A stretch of DNA of 44,532 bases from Oscillatoriales cyanobacterium (GTDB taxonomy: Bacteria; Cyanobacteriota; Cyanobacteriia; Cyanobacteriales; Laspinemataceae), in the NCBI GenBank assembly GCA_011390955.1, contig JAABRM010000060.1, forward strand, positions 1 through 44,532. Reading direction: 5' to 3'. Both the position numbers and the translations under genes were made by a program. Shown piece after piece: positions 36,833 to 44,532 of this stretch (position 1 is its first letter; every line of letters begins with the position of its first letter). The notes under the pieces are model-generated. The model worked only from the letters and a program-made list of their open reading frames with translations. It searched no databases and was not told the origin of the DNA.

Positions 36833-39800
36833 ATGATGAGTAATATTTCTACCAATCAAAATCCCTGGGAATTCTGGATCGATCGCGGCGGCACATTTAC
36901 CGATATTGTTGCCAAACGTCCCGACGGAAAATTAGTGATTCATAAAGTGTTATCGGAAAATCCCGATCGCTATAGTGACGCCCCTTGTCAGGGAATTCGA
37001 GAAATTTTGGGTATTCCCACCAATGAACCTATCCCTGGGGAATTGATTTCCGCAGTGAAAATGGGCACTACCGTAGCAACAAATGCCCTATTAGAACGGA
37101 AAGGCGATCGCACAGTTTTAGTCATTACTAAAGGATTTCGGGATGCCTTGCGAATTGGTTATCAAAATCGCCCGGATATTTTTGCGCGGGAAATTGTTCT
37201 GCCAGAAATGCTTTATGAACAAGCGATCGAAGTAACCGAACGCTACAATGCCCACGGGGAAGAATTGCAACCCGTAAATGAAGCGCCATTAATTGCCCAA
37301 TTGCAGCAAGCATATAACAGCGGCATTCGTTCTTGCGCGATCGCATTAATGCATGGCTATCGCTATCCGAAACACGAACAGCAAATTGCTGAAATTGCCC
37401 GCAAAATTGGCTTTACGCAAATTTCCATTTCCCACCAAGTTAGCCCCTTAATGAAATTAGTTAGTCGGGGAGATACTACCGTAGTCGATGCCTATCTTTC
37501 TCCTATTTTACGCCGCTATGTCGATCGCGTTGCGGGACAACTTTCCGACAACCAATCCGCCCCAACATTAATGTTTATGCAATCTTATGGTGGGTTAACA
37601 GATGCCCAAAAATTTCAAGGCAAAGATAGCATCTTATCTGGGCCTGCGGGGGGCATTGTTGGGGCAGTTCAAACCAGTAAAATGGCCGGTTTTGATAAAA
37701 TTATCACCTTTGACATGGGGGGAACTTCCACCGACGTAGCCCATTATAACGGCGAATACGAACGAGAATTTGAAACAGAAATTGCTGGAGTTCGCCTCCG
37801 AACTCCCATGATGTCAATTCATACGGTAGCAGCCGGTGGGGGGTCAATTTTATTTTTTGATGGGTCACGATATCGGGTCGGGCCAGAATCTGCCGGGGCA
37901 AATCCTGGGCCTGCTTGTTATCGCCAAGGTGGGCCATTAACTGTCACCGATTGTAATGTCATGTTAGGCAAAATTCAGCCGCAATTTTTCCCTAAAGTGT
38001 TCGGCAAAAATGGGGATTTACCCTTAGATGGGGAAATTGTCCGGCAAAAATTTCATCAATTAACTACAGAAATTAACGCCAAAACTGGGAGCAATTCCAC
38101 CCCGGAACAAGTAGCCGCCGGATTTTTAGCGATCGCCGTAGAAAATATGGCCAATGCCATCAAAAAAATCTCCTTACAACGGGGTTATAACGTTTCTGAA
38201 TATACCCTCTGTTGTTTTGGCGGCGCCGGGGGACAACACGCTTGCCAAATTGCCGAAACTTTAGGCATGAAACAAGTATTTATCCATCCTTATGCTGGAG
38301 TTTTATCGGCTTTCGGCATGGGATTGGCGGATGTTCGCGTGATTCAGCAACGGGCAATTGAAGCGCCATTATCCCCAGAATTATTATCAGAATTGCAGCA
38401 AATATTCGCTGAATTAGCTGCAAAAGGTAAACAAGAAATCGCCAATAACGATATCAGTGGTTTAACAGAAACTCGAGATTGCCAAGTTTTCCCCAAAGTC
38501 CAGCTAAAATATCAGGGAACGGATTCATCTTTGATTGTGGATTTTACCGAAAATGTGGCCACTATGCAAGCCGAATTTGCAGCCGCCCACCAGCAACGTT
38601 ATGGCTTTATTCAACCAGAAAAAGCCCTAATTGTTGAGGCTGTTTCTGTGGAAGTGGTGCAAATTATGGATAGTCCCGAAGACCCCATAATTTATCGTCA
38701 CAGTCCCGAACCTCCCTCACCCATTGCCACCGTAAAAATGTATGTGGCAAGTATCTGGCAAGATACCCCGGTTTTTCAGCGGGATATGTTACAACCGGGA
38801 GATATAATTACCGGCCCTGGGATTATTATTGAAGCAACGGGAACGAATGCGATCGCGCCCAATTGGCAGGCGAAAATCACCGAAAAAAATCATTTAATTC
38901 TCACCAAAGAAACGACAATTTCCTCCTCTCCCGTTGCCCCAAAAACGACCCAGATCGCTGCCAAACCAGACCCGGTAATGTTGGAAATTTTCAACAACTT
39001 ATTTCGGGCGATCGCGGAACAAATGGGCATCACCTTGCAAAACACCGCCTCCTCCGTCAACATCAAAGAACGCCTCGACTTTTCTTGTGCCATCTTCGAT
39101 CAAAACGGACAATTAGTAGCCAACGCCCCTCATATTCCCGTCCATCTTGGGTCAATGAGTGAAAGCGTAAAAGCCCTAATCAAAGACAAAAACAACACCC
39201 TACAACCGGGGGATGTTTATATTTCCAATAACCCCTACAATGGCGGCACCCATTTACCTGACATCACCGTCATTACCCCGGTATTTCTAACCGAATCATC
39301 CCAAAAATCTGCTGCCAACCCTATTACTCAAACCGACAACCCATCCGCTGCCACATCCGCCGACCAAGCTATTACTCAAACCAAAAACCCATCCGCTGCC
39401 CCATCCGCCGACCAAGCTATTACTCAAACCAAAAACCCATCCGCTGCCACATCCGCTGCCCCATCCGGTGCGCCCATCTTCTACCTTGCCTCTCGTGGAC
39501 ACCATGCAGACATTGGCGGAATTACTCCCGGTTCCATGCCTCCTAACAGTATCTCCGTAGACCAAGAAGGCATATTATTTGACAATTTCCAGCTAGTTTC
39601 TGGCGGCAAATTCCAAGAAACCGAACTACTGGAAAAACTCAACTCCAGCCCATATCCTGCCCGCAACACTGCCCAAAACATCGCCGACTTACAAGCGCAA
39701 ATTGCCGCCAACAAACGGGGAATTCAAGAAATAGAAAACATGGTCAACCATTTCGGCTTAGAAACCGTTCAAGCCTATATGGGATATGTGCAGGACAATG

Positions 39801-40669
39801 CCGAAGAATCCGTTCGCCGTGCGATCGCCGTCCTCAAAGATGGGGAATTTACCTATCTTATGGATGCCGGAGGAACCATCCAGGTAAAAGTCACTTTAGA
39901 CAAAACCACCCGCAGCGCTAAAATCGACTTTACCGGCACATCTTCCCAGCAAAATAGCAATTTTAACGCCCCGGCTGCGGTATGTAAAGCGGCGGTTCTC
40001 TATGTATTTCGCACCCTAGTTGATGACAATATCCCCCTCAATGCTGGTTGCCTGAAACCATTAGAAATTATCATTCCCGAAGGCTGTATGCTAAATCCCC
40101 AATATCCCGCTGCGGTGGTTGCCGGAAATGTAGAAACTTCTCAGGCGATCGTGGATGCTTTATATGGGGCATTAGGGGTGATGGCCGCATCCCAAGGAAC
40201 CATGAATAACTTCACTTTTGGTAATGAAAAATATCAATATTATGAAACCATTTGTGGCGGTTCTGGGGCTGGGCAAAACTTTAATGGAACGGATGCAGTG
40301 CATACGCACATGACCAACTCTCGGTTAACTGACCCAGAAGTTTTAGAATGGCGTTTTCCCGTGATATTAGAAAGTTTTGCCATTCGGGAAAATAGTGGTG
40401 GTAAAGGACAATATCGCGGCGGCAATGGGGTGATTCGTTGCCTGCGTTTCCAAGAACAAATGACTGCCGGTATTTTATCGAATCATCGGCTTATTTCTCC
40501 CTTTGGTTTAAATGGTGGCAGTGACGGGGCTTTGGGTAAAAATTATGTCCAACGTCGCGATGGAACAGTGGAACAATTAGACAGTACCGGGGCAGTAGAA
40601 ATGTATCCCGGAGATATGTTTATTATTGAAACTCCAGGGGGCGGTGGCTATGGTTTAGGTGAGAATTAA
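36833..40669 (+). CDS. 5-oxoprolinase, fused HyuA-HyuB (ATP-dependent)
   Basis: 1278 residues, the length of fused bacterial/eukaryotic OPLAH. It opens 5-oxo-L-proline to glutamate using ATP, a step of glutathione turnover. HyuA half about 10-690: [19 protein letters not shown], the nucleotide segments [36 protein letters not shown] (about 267-300) and [17 protein letters not shown]. HyuB half about 715-1275: [102 protein letters not shown] and [10 protein letters not shown] low-complexity tandem insertion lies in the HyuB half at about 822-880. A 5' fragment of the same gene lies at 35744. Confidence 0.93.
39300..39475 (+). repeat. 48-bp tandem repeat inserted in the HyuB half
   Basis: The unit GACCAAGCTATTACTCAAAC... 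recurs 48 bp apart (39362, 39410) with partial units on both sides, coding repeats of [14 protein letters not shown](T/P)S. It sits between ITPVF and [11 protein letters not shown], which are almost adjacent in normal oxoprolinases. Confidence 0.88.
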
Positions 40670-40744: not shown

Positions 40745-41749
40745 ATGAAAATTCAGCGAATTGAAATTCAGAATTTCCGAGGATTCGATCATTTTACCTG
40801 CGATTTAACTGACCCCTGTTTAATTGTGGGAAATAAAGGCAGTGGCAAAACTAGCCTAATGGAAGCATTGGCGATCGCTGCTGGTTCCCTGTTTTTAGGG
40901 TTTAGCGATATTCCATCTCGTAATATTCATAAAGAAGATGTGCGACGAATAGGTAATGAACCAGGAAAGGTGCCAACATCACAGTATCCGGTGGAGATTT
41001 GTTGTCAAGGTATAGTAAATGGGCAAGAAATTGATTGGAAGCGCACCATAGAAAAGGAAAACAGCCGAACTACGATGAAGGACGCCAAAAAAATTCAAAC
41101 AATTGGCCAACAAATTCAGAAACAATCTAGCGCTGGAAAAGAGATTCTGTTACCAATCGTTGCTTATTATAGCGCCGATCGCTTTTGGCCTAACAAATTA
41201 TTAAAACAAGTAACAATAGATAAACCTGGATCGAGAAGTAAAGGATATGTAAATTGGTTGAATCCGCCAGCGAATACGACTAAGCTATGGAACTGGTTGA
41301 GTTGGATGGAATTTAGCGCCAGAGATAAGGGAAAACCTTTAGAAATATTTATTGCAGTTAAAAAAGCGATCGCAGACTGTTCGGACAATGTACAGGAGGT
41401 GACATACGATTTTAATGAAAATGAACTGCTGTTTCAAACGAGGGATCGCGGGATGCAAACTTTTTGGATGCTCAATGATGGCGATCGCAATTTAGTAGGA
41501 ATGGTCGCGGATATTGCCTATCGCTGCGTTAATCTCAACCCTCAGTTTAACGCAGAAGCGATCGAGCAAACCCCTGGAGTGGTATTAATTGATGACTTAG
41601 AATTGCGTCTAGATTCAGCATTGGAAAAAAATATAATGAACAAGCTTCGGCAGATATTTCCCATGATACAATTTATTGGGACAACCCAATCACCGCTGAT
41701 TACCGAGGAAATAGAACCCCAGCAAATTGTCAACCTGAAATCATTATAG
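40745..41749 (+). CDS. AAA (ABC-type) ATPase with altered catalytic motifs
   Basis: 334 residues, a short RecF/SMC-head-like ATPase. MKIQRIEIQNFRGF, Walker A IVGNKGSGKTS (27-37), signature-like LNDGDRNLVGMVADIAYR, Walker B GVVLIDDLELRL near 279-290, and the switch region TTQSP near 312. Related proteins usually have LIDE in Walker B and TTHSP in the switch; here Glu is Asp and His is Gln, so ATP hydrolysis may be slow or absent. ATPases of this group are common in defence systems (OLD, retron and Septu-like). It is followed by a truncated sister gene. Confidence 0.82.
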   Translation: MKIQRIEIQNFRGFDHFTCDLTDPCLIVGNKGSGKTSLMEALAIAAGSLFLGFSDIPSRNIHKEDVRRIGNEPGKVPTSQYPVEICCQGIVNGQEIDWKRTIEKENSRTTMKDAKKIQTIGQQIQKQSSAGKEILLPIVAYYSADRFWPNKLLKQVTIDKPGSRSKGYVNWLNPPANTTKLWNWLSWMEFSARDKGKPLEIFIAVKKAIADCSDNVQEVTYDFNENELLFQTRDRGMQTFWMLNDGDRNLVGMVADIAYRCVNLNPQFNAEAIEQTPGVVLIDDLELRLDSALEKNIMNKLRQIFPMIQFIGTTQSPLITEEIEPQQIVNLKSL

Positions 41750-41804
41750 TCTCTAGCAGTCATCAACGGTCAAATTTAGCCTTGTTTAAGGATTGGAGAA
41801 AACT

Positions 41805-42047
41805 ATGAAAATTAACCGAATCATACTTGAGAACTTTAAATGCTTTGAAAACGAGGAGTTTGAACTCTCATCGCCCTATACTTTAATTATTGGGGATAAT
41901 GGTAAAGGGAAGACAGCGATTCTGGATGCGATCGCTGTTGGGATTAGTGCTTTACTATCAGAGGTTAGTGAATCAGGTTCTTTGCTTTTCTTAAAAGATA
42001 ATGACGTGCGTCTCAAATCATATAAAAAAGGAAATATATTTAGCTGA
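41805..42047 (+). pseudogene. N-terminal fragment of a second AAA ATPase
   Basis: 80 residues from an ATG with GGAG six bases upstream. MKINRIILENFKCFENEEFELSSPYTLIIGDNGKGKTAILDAIAVGISALL carries an intact Walker A (GDNGKGKT) and then ends SYKKGNIFS. No signature, Walker B or switch region follows in any frame before the next gene. It is similar in plan to the ATPase just upstream, so it is probably a decayed paralogue. A short standalone product cannot be excluded. Confidence 0.75.
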
Positions 42048-42095
42048 CGGACTTGTATGCTAAACTGAATATAGAGGAGTTATCCAAAGCTAATT

Positions 42096-42701
42096 ATGCT
42101 AACCCAATTTGATCGCGACTGTGCTTTGATCAATATTTACTTTCAAAACCGTCCTAATCCAAATGAGAGAAGATCAGTGCGGCAAGTGACCTCCTGGGAT
42201 GATGTGTATTTGGTACAGTTTTATTGGGGTCATTCTAAGTTTATTAGTAAAAACTCTGACTGGTTAGGAGAAGTTGCCGAAAAAGTACCTTCAGGATTAT
42301 TTCGAGAATCTTGCGATCCAGTGACTCTGAAAAAAGCGAATAGTCAAGAAAGAAAAATTATCAATTCTCAAGCTACAAAAAGATGGACGAAAGAACAGCA
42401 TAATCAATGGCTCGAAAGCCAAGAATTATATGTCCGGCGTTATTGGGCATATAAAAAATATTCAGAAATAGAAACATCATCAGAGCAAATAGAAGTGATG
42501 ACAGCTTTTGCCGTTTTAGGGCTACAACCCTTTTGTTTAACAGCCCAAATAAAAAAAGCTTTTCGAGAATTAGCCTTGCGGTTTCATCCCGATCGCGGTG
42601 GCAATGAAGACGCTTTTCAATTTTTGAAAGGAACCTATCAAAAAGCGCTTTTATATGCCAAAGATTATCTGTTAGTGAGCAATACATCGGAGGGTTTTTA
42701 A
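42096..42701 (+). CDS. Protein with C-terminal J (DnaJ) domain
   Basis: 201 residues. The N-terminal 125 residues are not recognised (rich in W, Y and charged residues: DDVYLVQFYWGHSKF, KRWTKEQHNQWLESQELYVRRYW). The C-terminal 65 residues are a J domain: AFAVLGLQPFCLTAQIKKAFRELALRFHPDRGGNEDAFQFLKGTYQKALLY with the HPD motif at 164-166. It should recruit a DnaK/Hsp70 protein to a client bound by the N-terminus. Followed by an unknown gene only 5 bp later, so probably co-transcribed. Confidence 0.8.
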   Translation: MLTQFDRDCALINIYFQNRPNPNERRSVRQVTSWDDVYLVQFYWGHSKFISKNSDWLGEVAEKVPSGLFRESCDPVTLKKANSQERKIINSQATKRWTKEQHNQWLESQELYVRRYWAYKKYSEIETSSEQIEVMTAFAVLGLQPFCLTAQIKKAFRELALRFHPDRGGNEDAFQFLKGTYQKALLYAKDYLLVSNTSEGF

Positions 42702-42706
42702 AGAAA

Positions 42707-43012
42707 ATGGTAGAAAATTATACTTACTTAGGCTCCACAATTCATTTTTATAATAATCTAGTCAGTGCTTACGATCTTTTAGTGGCTTTTTCTGTTCCCG
42801 ATCCAGCGAGTGAATTTTATAAAATTCAGAATCATCCATTATCATCAGACTTATTTCGCATTCCCAAAAGGGTTAGGTGGCAGTCTGAAGATGGAGAAAT
42901 GAAGGAGAGAATTTTTCTCAATATGCAGCAAATAGTAGTTTGCTTATATTATCTACAGCAACATGACTTGATTAAAAATGATCAAACGATGAATTTTCTC
43001 CGTAAATCTTAA
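42707..43012 (+). CDS. Unknown protein, co-transcribed with J-domain gene
   Basis: 101 residues, starting five bases after the J-domain gene. No family is recognised. Sequence is soluble and mixed (YNNLVSAYDLLVAFSVPDPASEFYKIQNHPL...SDLFRIPKRVRWQ...NMQQIVVCLYYLQQHDLI), without signal peptide or repeats. Tight spacing suggests it acts with the J-domain protein. Confidence 0.6.
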   Translation: MVENYTYLGSTIHFYNNLVSAYDLLVAFSVPDPASEFYKIQNHPLSSDLFRIPKRVRWQSEDGEMKERIFLNMQQIVVCLYYLQQHDLIKNDQTMNFLRKS

Positions 43013-43263: not shown

Positions 43264-44379
43264 ATGAGCAATAGTGATTTTTTTAACAAGCCCAGAGAAC
43301 AGTCTTTAGTGAAAACTGAAATCGTCACTAAATATTTTGGGGCTTGGGCAAAAGTAATTATCCCCCAGGCTAAGGAAAAAAACAAAAATATTGCATACGT
43401 TGATTTATTTTCTGGGCCGGGCCGCTACGAAGATGGCACTCAGTCTACACCATTACTGATTTTGGAACGGGCGATCGCCGATCCAGATATGCAACAAATG
43501 CTGATCGGCATCTTTAATGATATTAACTCTAATCATACCCAATCTCTTCAAAAAGCGATCGCCTCACTCGATGGCATCAATACCTTAGAACATAAACCCA
43601 AAGTATTAAACATAGAAGTAGGATCAGAAATCATCAGTGTTTTTAAACAATATCGATGTCCGATACTTTCTTTTATCGATCCTTGGGGTTACAAAGGCTT
43701 GTCACTTCAACTAATTAGTTCAGCGATCGCCGGTTGGGGGTGCGATTGCATATTTTTCTTTAACTATAACCGGGTTAATCCTGGATTGCGTAACCCACGA
43801 GTCGAAAAACATATGAACGATCTCTTTGGCAAAGACCAAGCGGATCTACTTCGAGAACAAGTGGTCAATTTGCCACCTGATGAACGAGAGTCAAGGATTG
43901 TTCAGGCGATCGGTGACGCTTTAAAAAAAGTAGGTGGTTCATATTTTCAAGATTTTTGCTTTAAGAACGAAGATAAAGATCAAACTAGCCATTATATTAT
44001 TTTTGTATCTAAGAATCATCTTGGTCACAAGATTATGAAAGATATTATGGCACCATACAGTTCTACAATAATTCAAGGTGTACCATCGTTTAAATACGAC
44101 GAAAAGCCTGTCCAGCTTTCAATACTTGACTCCCAACCACTTGACAATCTAGAAAATATGTTGCTTGATAAATTTGCCGGAAAAACTATGACCATGCTTG
44201 AAGTTTATGAGCAACATCATGTTGGCAAACGCTACATCAAGACAAATTATAAAGAAGCTCTAAAAAAATTAGAATCTCAAGGTAAAATAACTGTAGACCC
44301 ACCATCTAGTAAACGCCGAAAAAATAAAGGTCAGACTACATTTGCGGATCATATCAAAGTTACTTTCCCACCGAAGTAA
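43264..44379 (+). CDS. tcmP: Three-Cys-motif partner protein TcmP
   Basis: 371 residues. The plan of the TcmP family (TIGR04474-like) is visible: FFNKPREQSLVKTEIVTKYFGAWAKVI, then YVDLFSGPGRYEDG (45-58) resembling a SAM-binding loop, IGIFNDIN, and ILSFIDPWGYKGLSL with DPWG (139-142), reminiscent of the (D/N)PP(Y/W) motif of N-methyltransferases. The C-terminal 90 residues include a winged-helix-like part (YIKTNYKEALKKLESQGKITV) and a basic tail. About half of known members sit next to a Gp37/Gp68 (PF07505) gene with three conserved Cys, and one such gene is convergent here. Function is not established. The 3' ends overlap by 20 bases. Confidence 0.85.
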   Translation: MSNSDFFNKPREQSLVKTEIVTKYFGAWAKVIIPQAKEKNKNIAYVDLFSGPGRYEDGTQSTPLLILERAIADPDMQQMLIGIFNDINSNHTQSLQKAIASLDGINTLEHKPKVLNIEVGSEIISVFKQYRCPILSFIDPWGYKGLSLQLISSAIAGWGCDCIFFFNYNRVNPGLRNPRVEKHMNDLFGKDQADLLREQVVNLPPDERESRIVQAIGDALKKVGGSYFQDFCFKNEDKDQTSHYIIFVSKNHLGHKIMKDIMAPYSSTIIQGVPSFKYDEKPVQLSILDSQPLDNLENMLLDKFAGKTMTMLEVYEQHHVGKRYIKTNYKEALKKLESQGKITVDPPSSKRRKNKGQTTFADHIKVTFPPK

Positions 44380-44532
44380 AAGATTTTTTGTTATCAACTT
44401 GCCTAGATTTAACCGGGACGTTTTTCCAACGCTGACGGTGTTTTTTCCAAGCTTCGGGCATTTCGTCCCAAATTTTATCATCTAATAATCTGCCATTGGC
44501 TTTTGGAGTTCTACCGCCCCACTGCTTAAAGA
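44360..44532 (-). CDS. Gp37/Gp68-family (three-Cys-motif) protein, C-terminus, cut by window end
   Basis: The minus strand is open from the window edge to a TAA at 44362-44360. It reads FKQWGGRTPKANGRLLDD, then KIWDEMPEAWKKHRQRW and VPVKSRQVDNKKSF. FKQWGG, followed by an NGR-LD segment and WDEMP, is the characteristic C-terminal end of the PF07505 (DUF5131, phage Gp37/Gp68) family, whose N-terminus carries a CxxxCxxC-like motif similar to radical SAM proteins. The Cys motif lies beyond the window. The gene is convergent with tcmP, its known partner. Confidence 0.75.
   Translation of the reverse strand, partial: FKQWGGRTPKANGRLLDDKIWDEMPEAWKKHRQRWKNVPVKSRQVDNKKSFTSVGK

Follow-up and report, generated by a model that had tools for sequence, protein, structure and literature searches.

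TcmP, the three-Cys-motif partner (TIGR04474), and DUF5131 (PF07505) are common protein family names without an assigned function. The open full-text literature (subscription papers and preprints excluded) yielded no mention of DUF5131, PF07505 or TIGR04474, and it refers to the three-Cys-motif partner only in passing, in three papers. Here we analyzed a TcmP gene that faces a truncated DUF5131 gene in a 44,532-nucleotide stretch of an Oscillatoriales cyanobacterium (assembly GCA_011390955.1, contig JAABRM010000060.1), the whole of which we call the window. The pair is probably a nucleic acid modification, repair or defence module. Beyond the initial annotation of this DNA, comparison of related loci (numbered L; genomes are numbered G) points to exchange of TcmP beside a constant DUF5131, to an alternative, canonical radical S-adenosylmethionine (SAM) partner, and to a link with the SOS response.

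The initial annotation described a full TcmP-like gene with a SAM-pocket-like loop and a DPWG motif and, on the opposite strand, the C-terminal end of a PF07505-type protein, with 20 bases of 3′ overlap. All of these features are present. The window TcmP is complete and scores 180.9 bits against TIGR04474 (E 4.2e-53; cut-off 53). Its C-terminus matches PF22560, GMT-wHTH, at 2.6e-18 (residues 290 to 348), and the protein matches PADLOC model PDC-M30A at 3.2e-25. The window is one whole contig, and the DUF5131 gene runs off its end: on the minus strand, a single open frame of 56 codons extends from 44532 to a stop at 44362-44360. The 56-residue fragment falls under the PF07505 cut-off (16.2 bits versus 28.9, E 0.0078), but we count it as DUF5131 since a full-length relative is 60% identical to it (E 2.8e-16), the fragment aligning with the C-terminus of that protein. 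The Cys motif of this copy would fall past the contig end and so outside the window. No second DUF5131 piece was found in the source assembly, where the fragment was the only match to the relative at E ≤ 10. The window pair is an ordinary TcmP-DUF5131 pair whose DUF5131 is truncated by the contig.

The two families had been called recurrent partners, and related genomes bear this out. The window TcmP is matched in 24 of 386 cyanobacterial genomes, source genome included. Seventeen other genomes have a near-full-length match (L004 to L020; L016 carries one internal stop), and in the other six the copy is either broken (G312, G385, G097) or matched only weakly and in part (G164, G238, G248). DUF5131 lies tail to tail with TcmP in all 17 of these loci, or 18 of 18 counting the window; the genes overlap by 4, 11 or 20 nucleotides in 16 of the 17, and a 147-nucleotide gap separates them in the other. 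In a mycobacterial genus sample of 30 TcmP loci (L226, L230 to L258), which leaves out four TcmP matches having no locus, 25 are convergent with DUF5131, one is co-directional, one is divergent, and three lack DUF5131. The order is also convergent in all four mycobacterial loci from genomes picked through DUF5131. Tail-to-tail overlap had been considered unusual for partners; it is instead the rule in the cyanobacterial subfamily of the window TcmP and in mycobacteria. Elsewhere, the order varies. Among 30 loci of other cyanobacterial TcmP subfamilies (L348 to L377), DUF5131 precedes TcmP in nine, TcmP precedes DUF5131 in seven, nine are convergent, and DUF5131 is absent from five. We also used the DUF5131 profile on a species-level genome collection and a viral set and took the best 80 of 584 genome relatives and the best 80 of 588 viral relatives. 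In the 80 genome loci, TcmP precedes DUF5131 in 39, DUF5131 precedes TcmP in 10, 17 are convergent, one has the genes distant, and 13, three of them near contig ends, have DUF5131 without TcmP. Because order is mixed across these sets, convergence is a clade trait and not a requirement. Convergence as an essential property of the pair is ruled out, since co-directional loci are common (39/80).

Above the family cut-offs, TcmP occurs in 54 of 386 cyanobacterial genomes (57 at E ≤ 0.001) and DUF5131 in 68 (72 at E ≤ 0.001); TcmP is present in 29 of 198 mycobacterial genomes. All 14 viral loci with a window-like TcmP also have DUF5131, adjacent in 12 and at 1.9 kb in two. On the viral contigs collected through DUF5131 (L144 to L223), 44 of 80 loci have no recognized TcmP within 5 kb, and 12 of these 44 are near contig ends. 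A Rhodococcus plasmid carries a second, divergent TcmP (L057, 2370-3713) adjoining a TcmP-DUF5131 pair, and the two different TcmPs may share one DUF5131. Some long actinobacterial open frames (up to 791 amino acids) hold DUF5131 matches.

The Cys motif of PF07505 had been likened to that of radical-SAM enzymes. We collected 238 distinct DUF5131 open reading frames (ORFs) of at least 215 amino acids from relatives; 234 have CX6CX2C, and 233 of these read GCX6CX2C. In two of the remaining four (L013, at a contig end, and L069) the called ORF misses the N-terminus, and the DUF5131 proteins of L358 and L359 have the canonical CX3CX2C. L359 aligns with the DUF5131 family profile (hhalign 1.3e-33, 37% identity over 207 columns) and has three residues fewer, exactly between the first two cysteines. 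The cysteines of DUF5131 also line up one to one with those of a haloarchaeal PF04055 radical-SAM protein encoded beside TcmP, again with the three-residue loop difference, and DUF5131 resembles TIGR04471, radical SAM mobile pair A, at 1.5e-27, under the cut-off of that model. An AlphaFold2 (AF2) model of DUF5131 built from 51 sequences has a predicted local distance difference test score (pLDDT) of 89.3. Its top five Protein Data Bank (PDB) matches are all spore photoproduct lyase (SPL; prob 0.99-1.00), the best with E 1.2e-3, prob 1.00 and TMq 0.46. We did not find CX6CX2C together with radical SAM in the open full-text literature. We conclude that DUF5131 proteins are very probably radical-SAM enzymes whose cluster loop carries a three-residue insertion. 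The radical-SAM link made by the initial annotation is supported, while the usual motif of the family is CX6CX2C and not the expected CxxxCxxC.

The genes that stand in for DUF5131 point the same way. In cyanobacteria, 10 intact TcmP loci above the cut-off are not flanked by DUF5131, and in all 10 a CX3CX2C radical-SAM gene adjoins TcmP instead, a count that leaves out a decayed copy in G385, below-cut-off matches in G328, G296 and G214, and a fragment in G030. All ten share homology with the haloarchaeal gene (E 1.2e-67 to 5.8e-60). In haloarchaea, two plasmid-borne TcmPs are immediately preceded by a PF04055 radical-SAM gene, and DUF5131 is not among the annotations there. On the haloarchaeal plasmids L056 and L062, two mutually divergent radical-SAM genes lie upstream of TcmP. 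The TcmP of L391, beside a radical-SAM gene, is 54% identical over its full length to that of L132, beside a CX6CX2C DUF5131; judging from this identity, one TcmP subfamily uses either enzyme. Given the Cys motif of DUF5131, its SPL-like model and the 10 of 10 alternative neighbors, TcmP appears to be a partner of radical-SAM enzymes, and it adjoins a radical-SAM-type gene nearly always. One intact mycobacterial TcmP, L249, has neither DUF5131 nor a radical-SAM gene in its 1.5-kb flanks. That TcmP never occurs without DUF5131 is ruled out by the ten cyanobacterial radical-SAM loci and L249.

For TcmP itself, the Rossmann methyltransferase fold considered in the initial annotation is predicted by an AF2 model of the window protein (pLDDT 94.7). 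The model has 121 PDB matches at E ≤ 1e-3; the 50 best, with TMq 0.19-0.40, nearly all have a methyltransferase fold, and the top ones are Trm1 (2.0e-6) and RlmJ (4.6e-6). Sequence searches of the PDB with TcmP and with both profiles gave nothing useful. In a TcmP alignment of 90 rows, in which five loci are counted twice, position 47 is Asp or Glu in 88, G51 and D139 are kept in all 90, and K17 and Y24 are present in 86. DPxG occurs in 57 rows, and DQx followed by A, G, S or M in 18; Trm1 carries a DPFG motif.

The two genes differ sharply in how they vary. Among 62 pairs (1,891 comparisons), median identity is 58% for DUF5131 and 20% for TcmP, the former inflated because loci were picked by DUF5131 similarity. 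Where DUF5131 identity reaches at least 70% (164 comparisons), TcmP falls below 25% in 115 and is at 40% or more in 21. Junctions and nearest neighbors are independent of how the loci were chosen. In 27 nonredundant mycobacterial pairs, DUF5131 is 63 to 99% identical (median 81%), TcmP, with a median of 20%, splits into seven families by single linkage at 35%, and in 14 of the 27 pairs the nearest DUF5131 comes with a different TcmP family. The mycobacterial loci L238 and L250 have DUF5131 proteins 99% identical and TcmPs 17% identical. At the DNA level the two loci are 89.5% identical as far as the stop codon of DUF5131, have no blastn match through TcmP, and are related again upstream of TcmP (79.6%); L252 and L080 show the same break. 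Microcoleus and Oscillatoria relatives of the window (L064 to L068) reveal what else the position can hold. In Microcoleus L064, TcmP sits between DUF5131 and an oxoprolinase homologue, which lies on the same side of TcmP and DUF5131 in L004, L017 and L064 to L068. The TcmP slot is taken by an RNase H gene in L065 and L066 and by two other ORFs with HEAT-type repeats in L068, and it holds only 150 bp in L067; other ORFs separate the oxoprolinase from the TcmP/DUF5131 slot in L065, L066 and L068. The flanks of L064 are homologous to those of L065 and L068, and those of the window to L065 to L068 (L067 on the oxoprolinase side only). The genomes of L065 to L068 have no TIGR04474 match. These sequence comparisons show DUF5131 as nearly constant and TcmP as exchanged or lost at the same slot. 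Specificity or arms-race systems have this pattern, in which the catalyst stays fixed and its partner can be swapped.

Upstream sequences suggested when the module might act. The Gram-positive LexA core GAACN4GTTC, chosen from 20 pattern-by-set tests, is present in the 300 bp before 12 of 118 nonredundant actinobacterial units (11 loci), a set that includes the discovery loci. Five of the 12 boxes have the full TCGAACN4GTTCGA, and 11 precede DUF5131; a box upstream of L136 (Saprospirales) was kept out of the actinobacterial count. The core is present in 0 of 200 upstreams of other ORFs (Fisher 4.7e-6), and the expectation is a mean of 0.48 from shuffles (maximum 3 in 200) and 1.38 from random same-locus segments (maximum 7 in 200). 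In loci outside the discovery set (L301 to L330), 2 of 32 upstreams have it. The patterns CTGTN8ACAG, GTTCN7GTTC, cyanobacterial LexA and PafBC-like, in what we take to be their usual forms, gave signals less clear than GAACN4GTTC; the E. coli-type CTGTN8ACAG occurs once among 47 cyanobacterial upstreams, at L004. The boxes agree with the published Streptomyces LexA consensus tCGAAC-N4-GNNCGa (PMC9380542). In the mycobacterial locus L230, the order is recA (with an intein), recX, TcmP, convergent DUF5131 and the start of miaB, where recA, recX and miaB were named by reading their translations. Published work describes related gene neighborhoods: in Mycobacterium tuberculosis, Rv2735c, next after recX, shares at least part of its transcription with recA-recX (PMC3062782); in BCG, recX is BCG_2749c, and BCG_2748c is annotated with a TcmP domain (PMC7387457); and under mitomycin C, Rv2734, Rv2735c, recX and recA are reported as a single cluster of differentially expressed genes (PMC5057432). 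It follows from gene order, not from their sequences, that Rv2735c is BCG_2748c, and from synteny with L230, not from its own sequence, that Rv2734 is DUF5131. In some actinobacteria, the module thus appears coupled to the DNA damage response, and the LexA-type boxes name a condition, DNA damage, under which to seek its product.

The initial annotation proposed a nucleic acid or protein modification system. We favor nucleic acid, and consider it about an even chance that nucleic acid is the target of a SAM-dependent module of two proteins, a radical-SAM DUF5131 and an exchangeable TcmP. In this model, DUF5131 would be a small radical-SAM enzyme of the SPL kind, whose three cysteines would bind a 4Fe-4S cluster for the cleavage of SAM to a 5′-deoxyadenosyl radical. 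The radical would then take hydrogen from a base. TcmP, with its RlmJ/Trm1-like fold and, often, a winged helix, would select and prime the site by flipping or methylating it. DUF5131 would be the constant engine and TcmP the exchangeable specificity part. A more specific version is tentative: a widespread two-part radical-SAM system, SOS-linked in some actinobacteria and made of a constant SPL-like enzyme and TcmP cassettes exchanged as whole genes, might write or erase a novel nucleic acid modification, with TcmP making or marking the site and DUF5131 completing or reversing the reaction.

Several observations weigh against this model. The TM-scores of TcmP are low (TMq 0.34 for Trm1 and 0.40 for RlmJ), and its likeness to RlmJ in profile comparison covers 21 columns only. 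The PDB matches of the DUF5131 model are all above E 1e-3 (1.2e-3 to 6.3e-3 for the top five), and three full DUF5131 proteins had no match to PF04055 at E ≤ 0.1 and none to the SPL families PF20903 and TIGR04070. Motif IV of amino-group (DPPY-type) methyltransferases is [DNS]PP[YFW]. TcmP lacks DPPY and has DPWG at this position in the window copy, and recA-linked mycobacterial TcmPs have DQQA for DPxG and MAGQPxN for FAGxGxY, which makes methyl transfer doubtful at least there. The fold is kept; methyl transfer is not certain in all members. DUF5131 without TcmP is found in 18 of 47 cyanobacterial genomes (left after setting aside, from the 72 with DUF5131, 20 that have a window-like TcmP and 5 whose matches are weak), in 13 of 80 genome loci and in 44 of 80 viral loci, so DUF5131 does not always need TcmP. 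Finally, Gram-positive and cyanobacterial LexA patterns occur in 0 of 47 cyanobacterial upstreams, and for this reason we do not extend the DNA damage link to the window.

A role in defence was raised as a possibility in the initial annotation. Both proteins match the PADLOC candidate PDC-M30, component A in the window and B (or M41B) in the DUF5131 of relatives. We then ran PADLOC on 142 neighbors of 20 cyanobacterial and mycobacterial pair loci and on 130 control proteins. An excess of defence genes around the 20 loci was not evident in this weak test, which used simple-ORF gene calls and 25 listed families per set; at L270, the pair was lost in greedy gene calling, and the middle genes were used. 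Among the families listed, each was matched by one or two proteins in either set, and families with any match numbered 158 for neighbors and 91 for controls, counts in which a single protein can be matched by many models. Plasmids carry the pair or its TcmP in 7 of 15 matches opened, and a Gordonia phage, one of nine phage records opened, carries the pair or TcmP beside an immunity repressor and near an integrase. It is possible, if well short of likely, that PDC-M30/M41 is an anti-phage system that blocks infection by modifying nucleic acid of the phage or the host, with TcmP diversifying through an arms race. The patchy spread of TcmP in cyanobacteria and mycobacteria, its exchange, and the mobile locations fit this explanation. 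So do two published data sets: in an expression table of Sinorhizobium meliloti, the TcmP gene SMa2243 comes directly after the Hna defence gene SMa2245 (PMC12445080), and of 32 Pseudomonas aeruginosa strains with predicted PDC-M30, 68.8% are resistant (PMC10855318). Against it stand the neighbor comparison and the LexA-type boxes and recA linkage, which point toward DNA damage.

Those same boxes and the recA-recX linkage, with SPL as the nearest fold to the DUF5131 model, would suit an SOS repair pair, in which DUF5131 reverses a base lesion as SPL does and TcmP recognizes the lesion. The mitomycin C cluster (PMC5057432) and a Streptomyces venezuelae LexA target reported to resemble radical-SAM thymine-crosslink repair enzymes (PMC9380542) agree with this. 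We consider it doubtful, since partner exchange down to 17% identity is unexpected for a general repair enzyme, the distribution is patchy, and the cyanobacterial upstreams lack the Gram-positive and cyanobacterial LexA-type box. Alternatively, TcmP could be a variable effector that modifies nucleic acid and DUF5131 its SPL-like antidote, with lone phage DUF5131 serving as counter-defence. This would account for the commonness of lone DUF5131, the rarity of intact TcmP without DUF5131 or a visible radical-SAM neighbor (L249), the 14 of 14 pairing of viral window-like TcmPs, the placement of 11 of 12 boxes ahead of DUF5131, and the constancy of DUF5131 while TcmP changes. However, boxes precede DUF5131 in 7 of 56 cases and TcmP in 1 of 45, a difference reaching only p 0.07; the M. 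tuberculosis TcmP gene Rv2735c is itself at least partly co-transcribed with recA and recX (PMC3062782); and lone viral DUF5131 genes may have TcmPs too divergent for the hidden Markov model used. An effector with its antidote is unlikely. Radical-SAM and class I methyltransferase folds also occur in pathways for ribosomally synthesized and post-translationally modified peptides and for cofactors, and many small-molecule methyltransferases are among the 50 best of the 121 structural matches to TcmP. Modification of a protein or small molecule is nevertheless quite improbable, given top structural matches to Trm1, RlmJ and SPL, the winged helix of TcmP, and the LexA-type boxes. We retain a nucleic acid-directed radical-SAM module as the preferred explanation.

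The features of the window are collected below. Between the oxoprolinase gene and TcmP, the window carries accessory ORFs that are missing from that position in L004 and L017. A 334-amino-acid ORF resembling the PtuA ATPase of Septu is followed by an 84-amino-acid AAA ORF, and the two (40745-42047) look like a decayed or partial defence-type module. Beyond them, a 201-amino-acid ORF has a C-terminal DnaJ domain, and the adjoining 101-amino-acid ORF has no Pfam match.

Table 1. Position and basis of assignment of features in the window
Feature	Position	Strand	Basis
TcmP, 371 aa, class I methyltransferase fold (predicted) + C-terminal winged helix	43264..44379	+	TIGR04474, PF22560, PDC-M30A, AF2
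Motif-I-like loop DLFSGPGRY, residues 47-55	43402..43428	+	Sequence, aligned TcmP rows
DPWG, residues 139-142, motif-IV position	43678..43689	+	Aligned TcmP rows
GMT-like winged helix-turn-helix, residues 290-348	44131..44307	+	PF22560
DUF5131 (PF07505, phage Gp37/Gp68 family), C-terminal 56 codons	44360..44532	-	Open frame, relative alignment
Tail-to-tail overlap TcmP/DUF5131, 20 nt	44360..44379	.	Reading frames
5-Oxoprolinase/hydantoinase-type gene, slot marker	36833..40669	+	Pfam, ORFs, blastn
Accessory ORFs between oxoprolinase and TcmP	40745..43012	+	Pfam, PADLOC, ORFs, blastn
PtuA-like ATPase ORF	40745-41749	+	Within accessory ORF stretch
Short AAA piece	41793-42047	+	Within accessory ORF stretch
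DnaJ-domain ORF	42096-42701	+	Within accessory ORF stretch
101-aa ORF	42707-43012	+	Within accessory ORF stretch

To two family names, these data add functional handles: a probable radical-SAM family with a loop insertion, members with the ordinary motif, and a swappable partner beside a constant enzyme. Compared with described families and systems, the window TcmP is a member of TIGR04474/PDC-M30A, above the cut-off and with no important difference. The window DUF5131, only 56 codons long, aligns with the C-terminus of PF07505/PDC-M30B, of which its relatives are full members. SPL is the nearest solved fold to the DUF5131 model, but DUF5131 is shorter, has CX6CX2C nearly throughout, usually has TcmP as a partner, and does not match PF20903. 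For the alternative protein that partners TcmP in haloarchaea, the resemblance is to the Rv2578c and PA0069 radical-SAM families, with scores under the cut-offs of both. In the radical SAM mobile pair, which by name consists of two radical-SAM proteins, DUF5131 is like A (TIGR04471), and the haloarchaeal partner is like B (TIGR04470, 2.2e-11), both matches far under the equivalog cut-offs. RlmJ and Trm1 are the nearest folds to TcmP, with low TM-scores, and RlmJ shares the DxxxGxGRY loop; TcmP differs in having no DPPY and in being an accessory gene with a winged helix and a radical-SAM partner. The arrangement of one constant and one exchangeable part recalls the specificity subunits of restriction-modification systems, but TcmP-DUF5131 has no nuclease, and the part exchanged is a whole protein of predicted methyltransferase fold.

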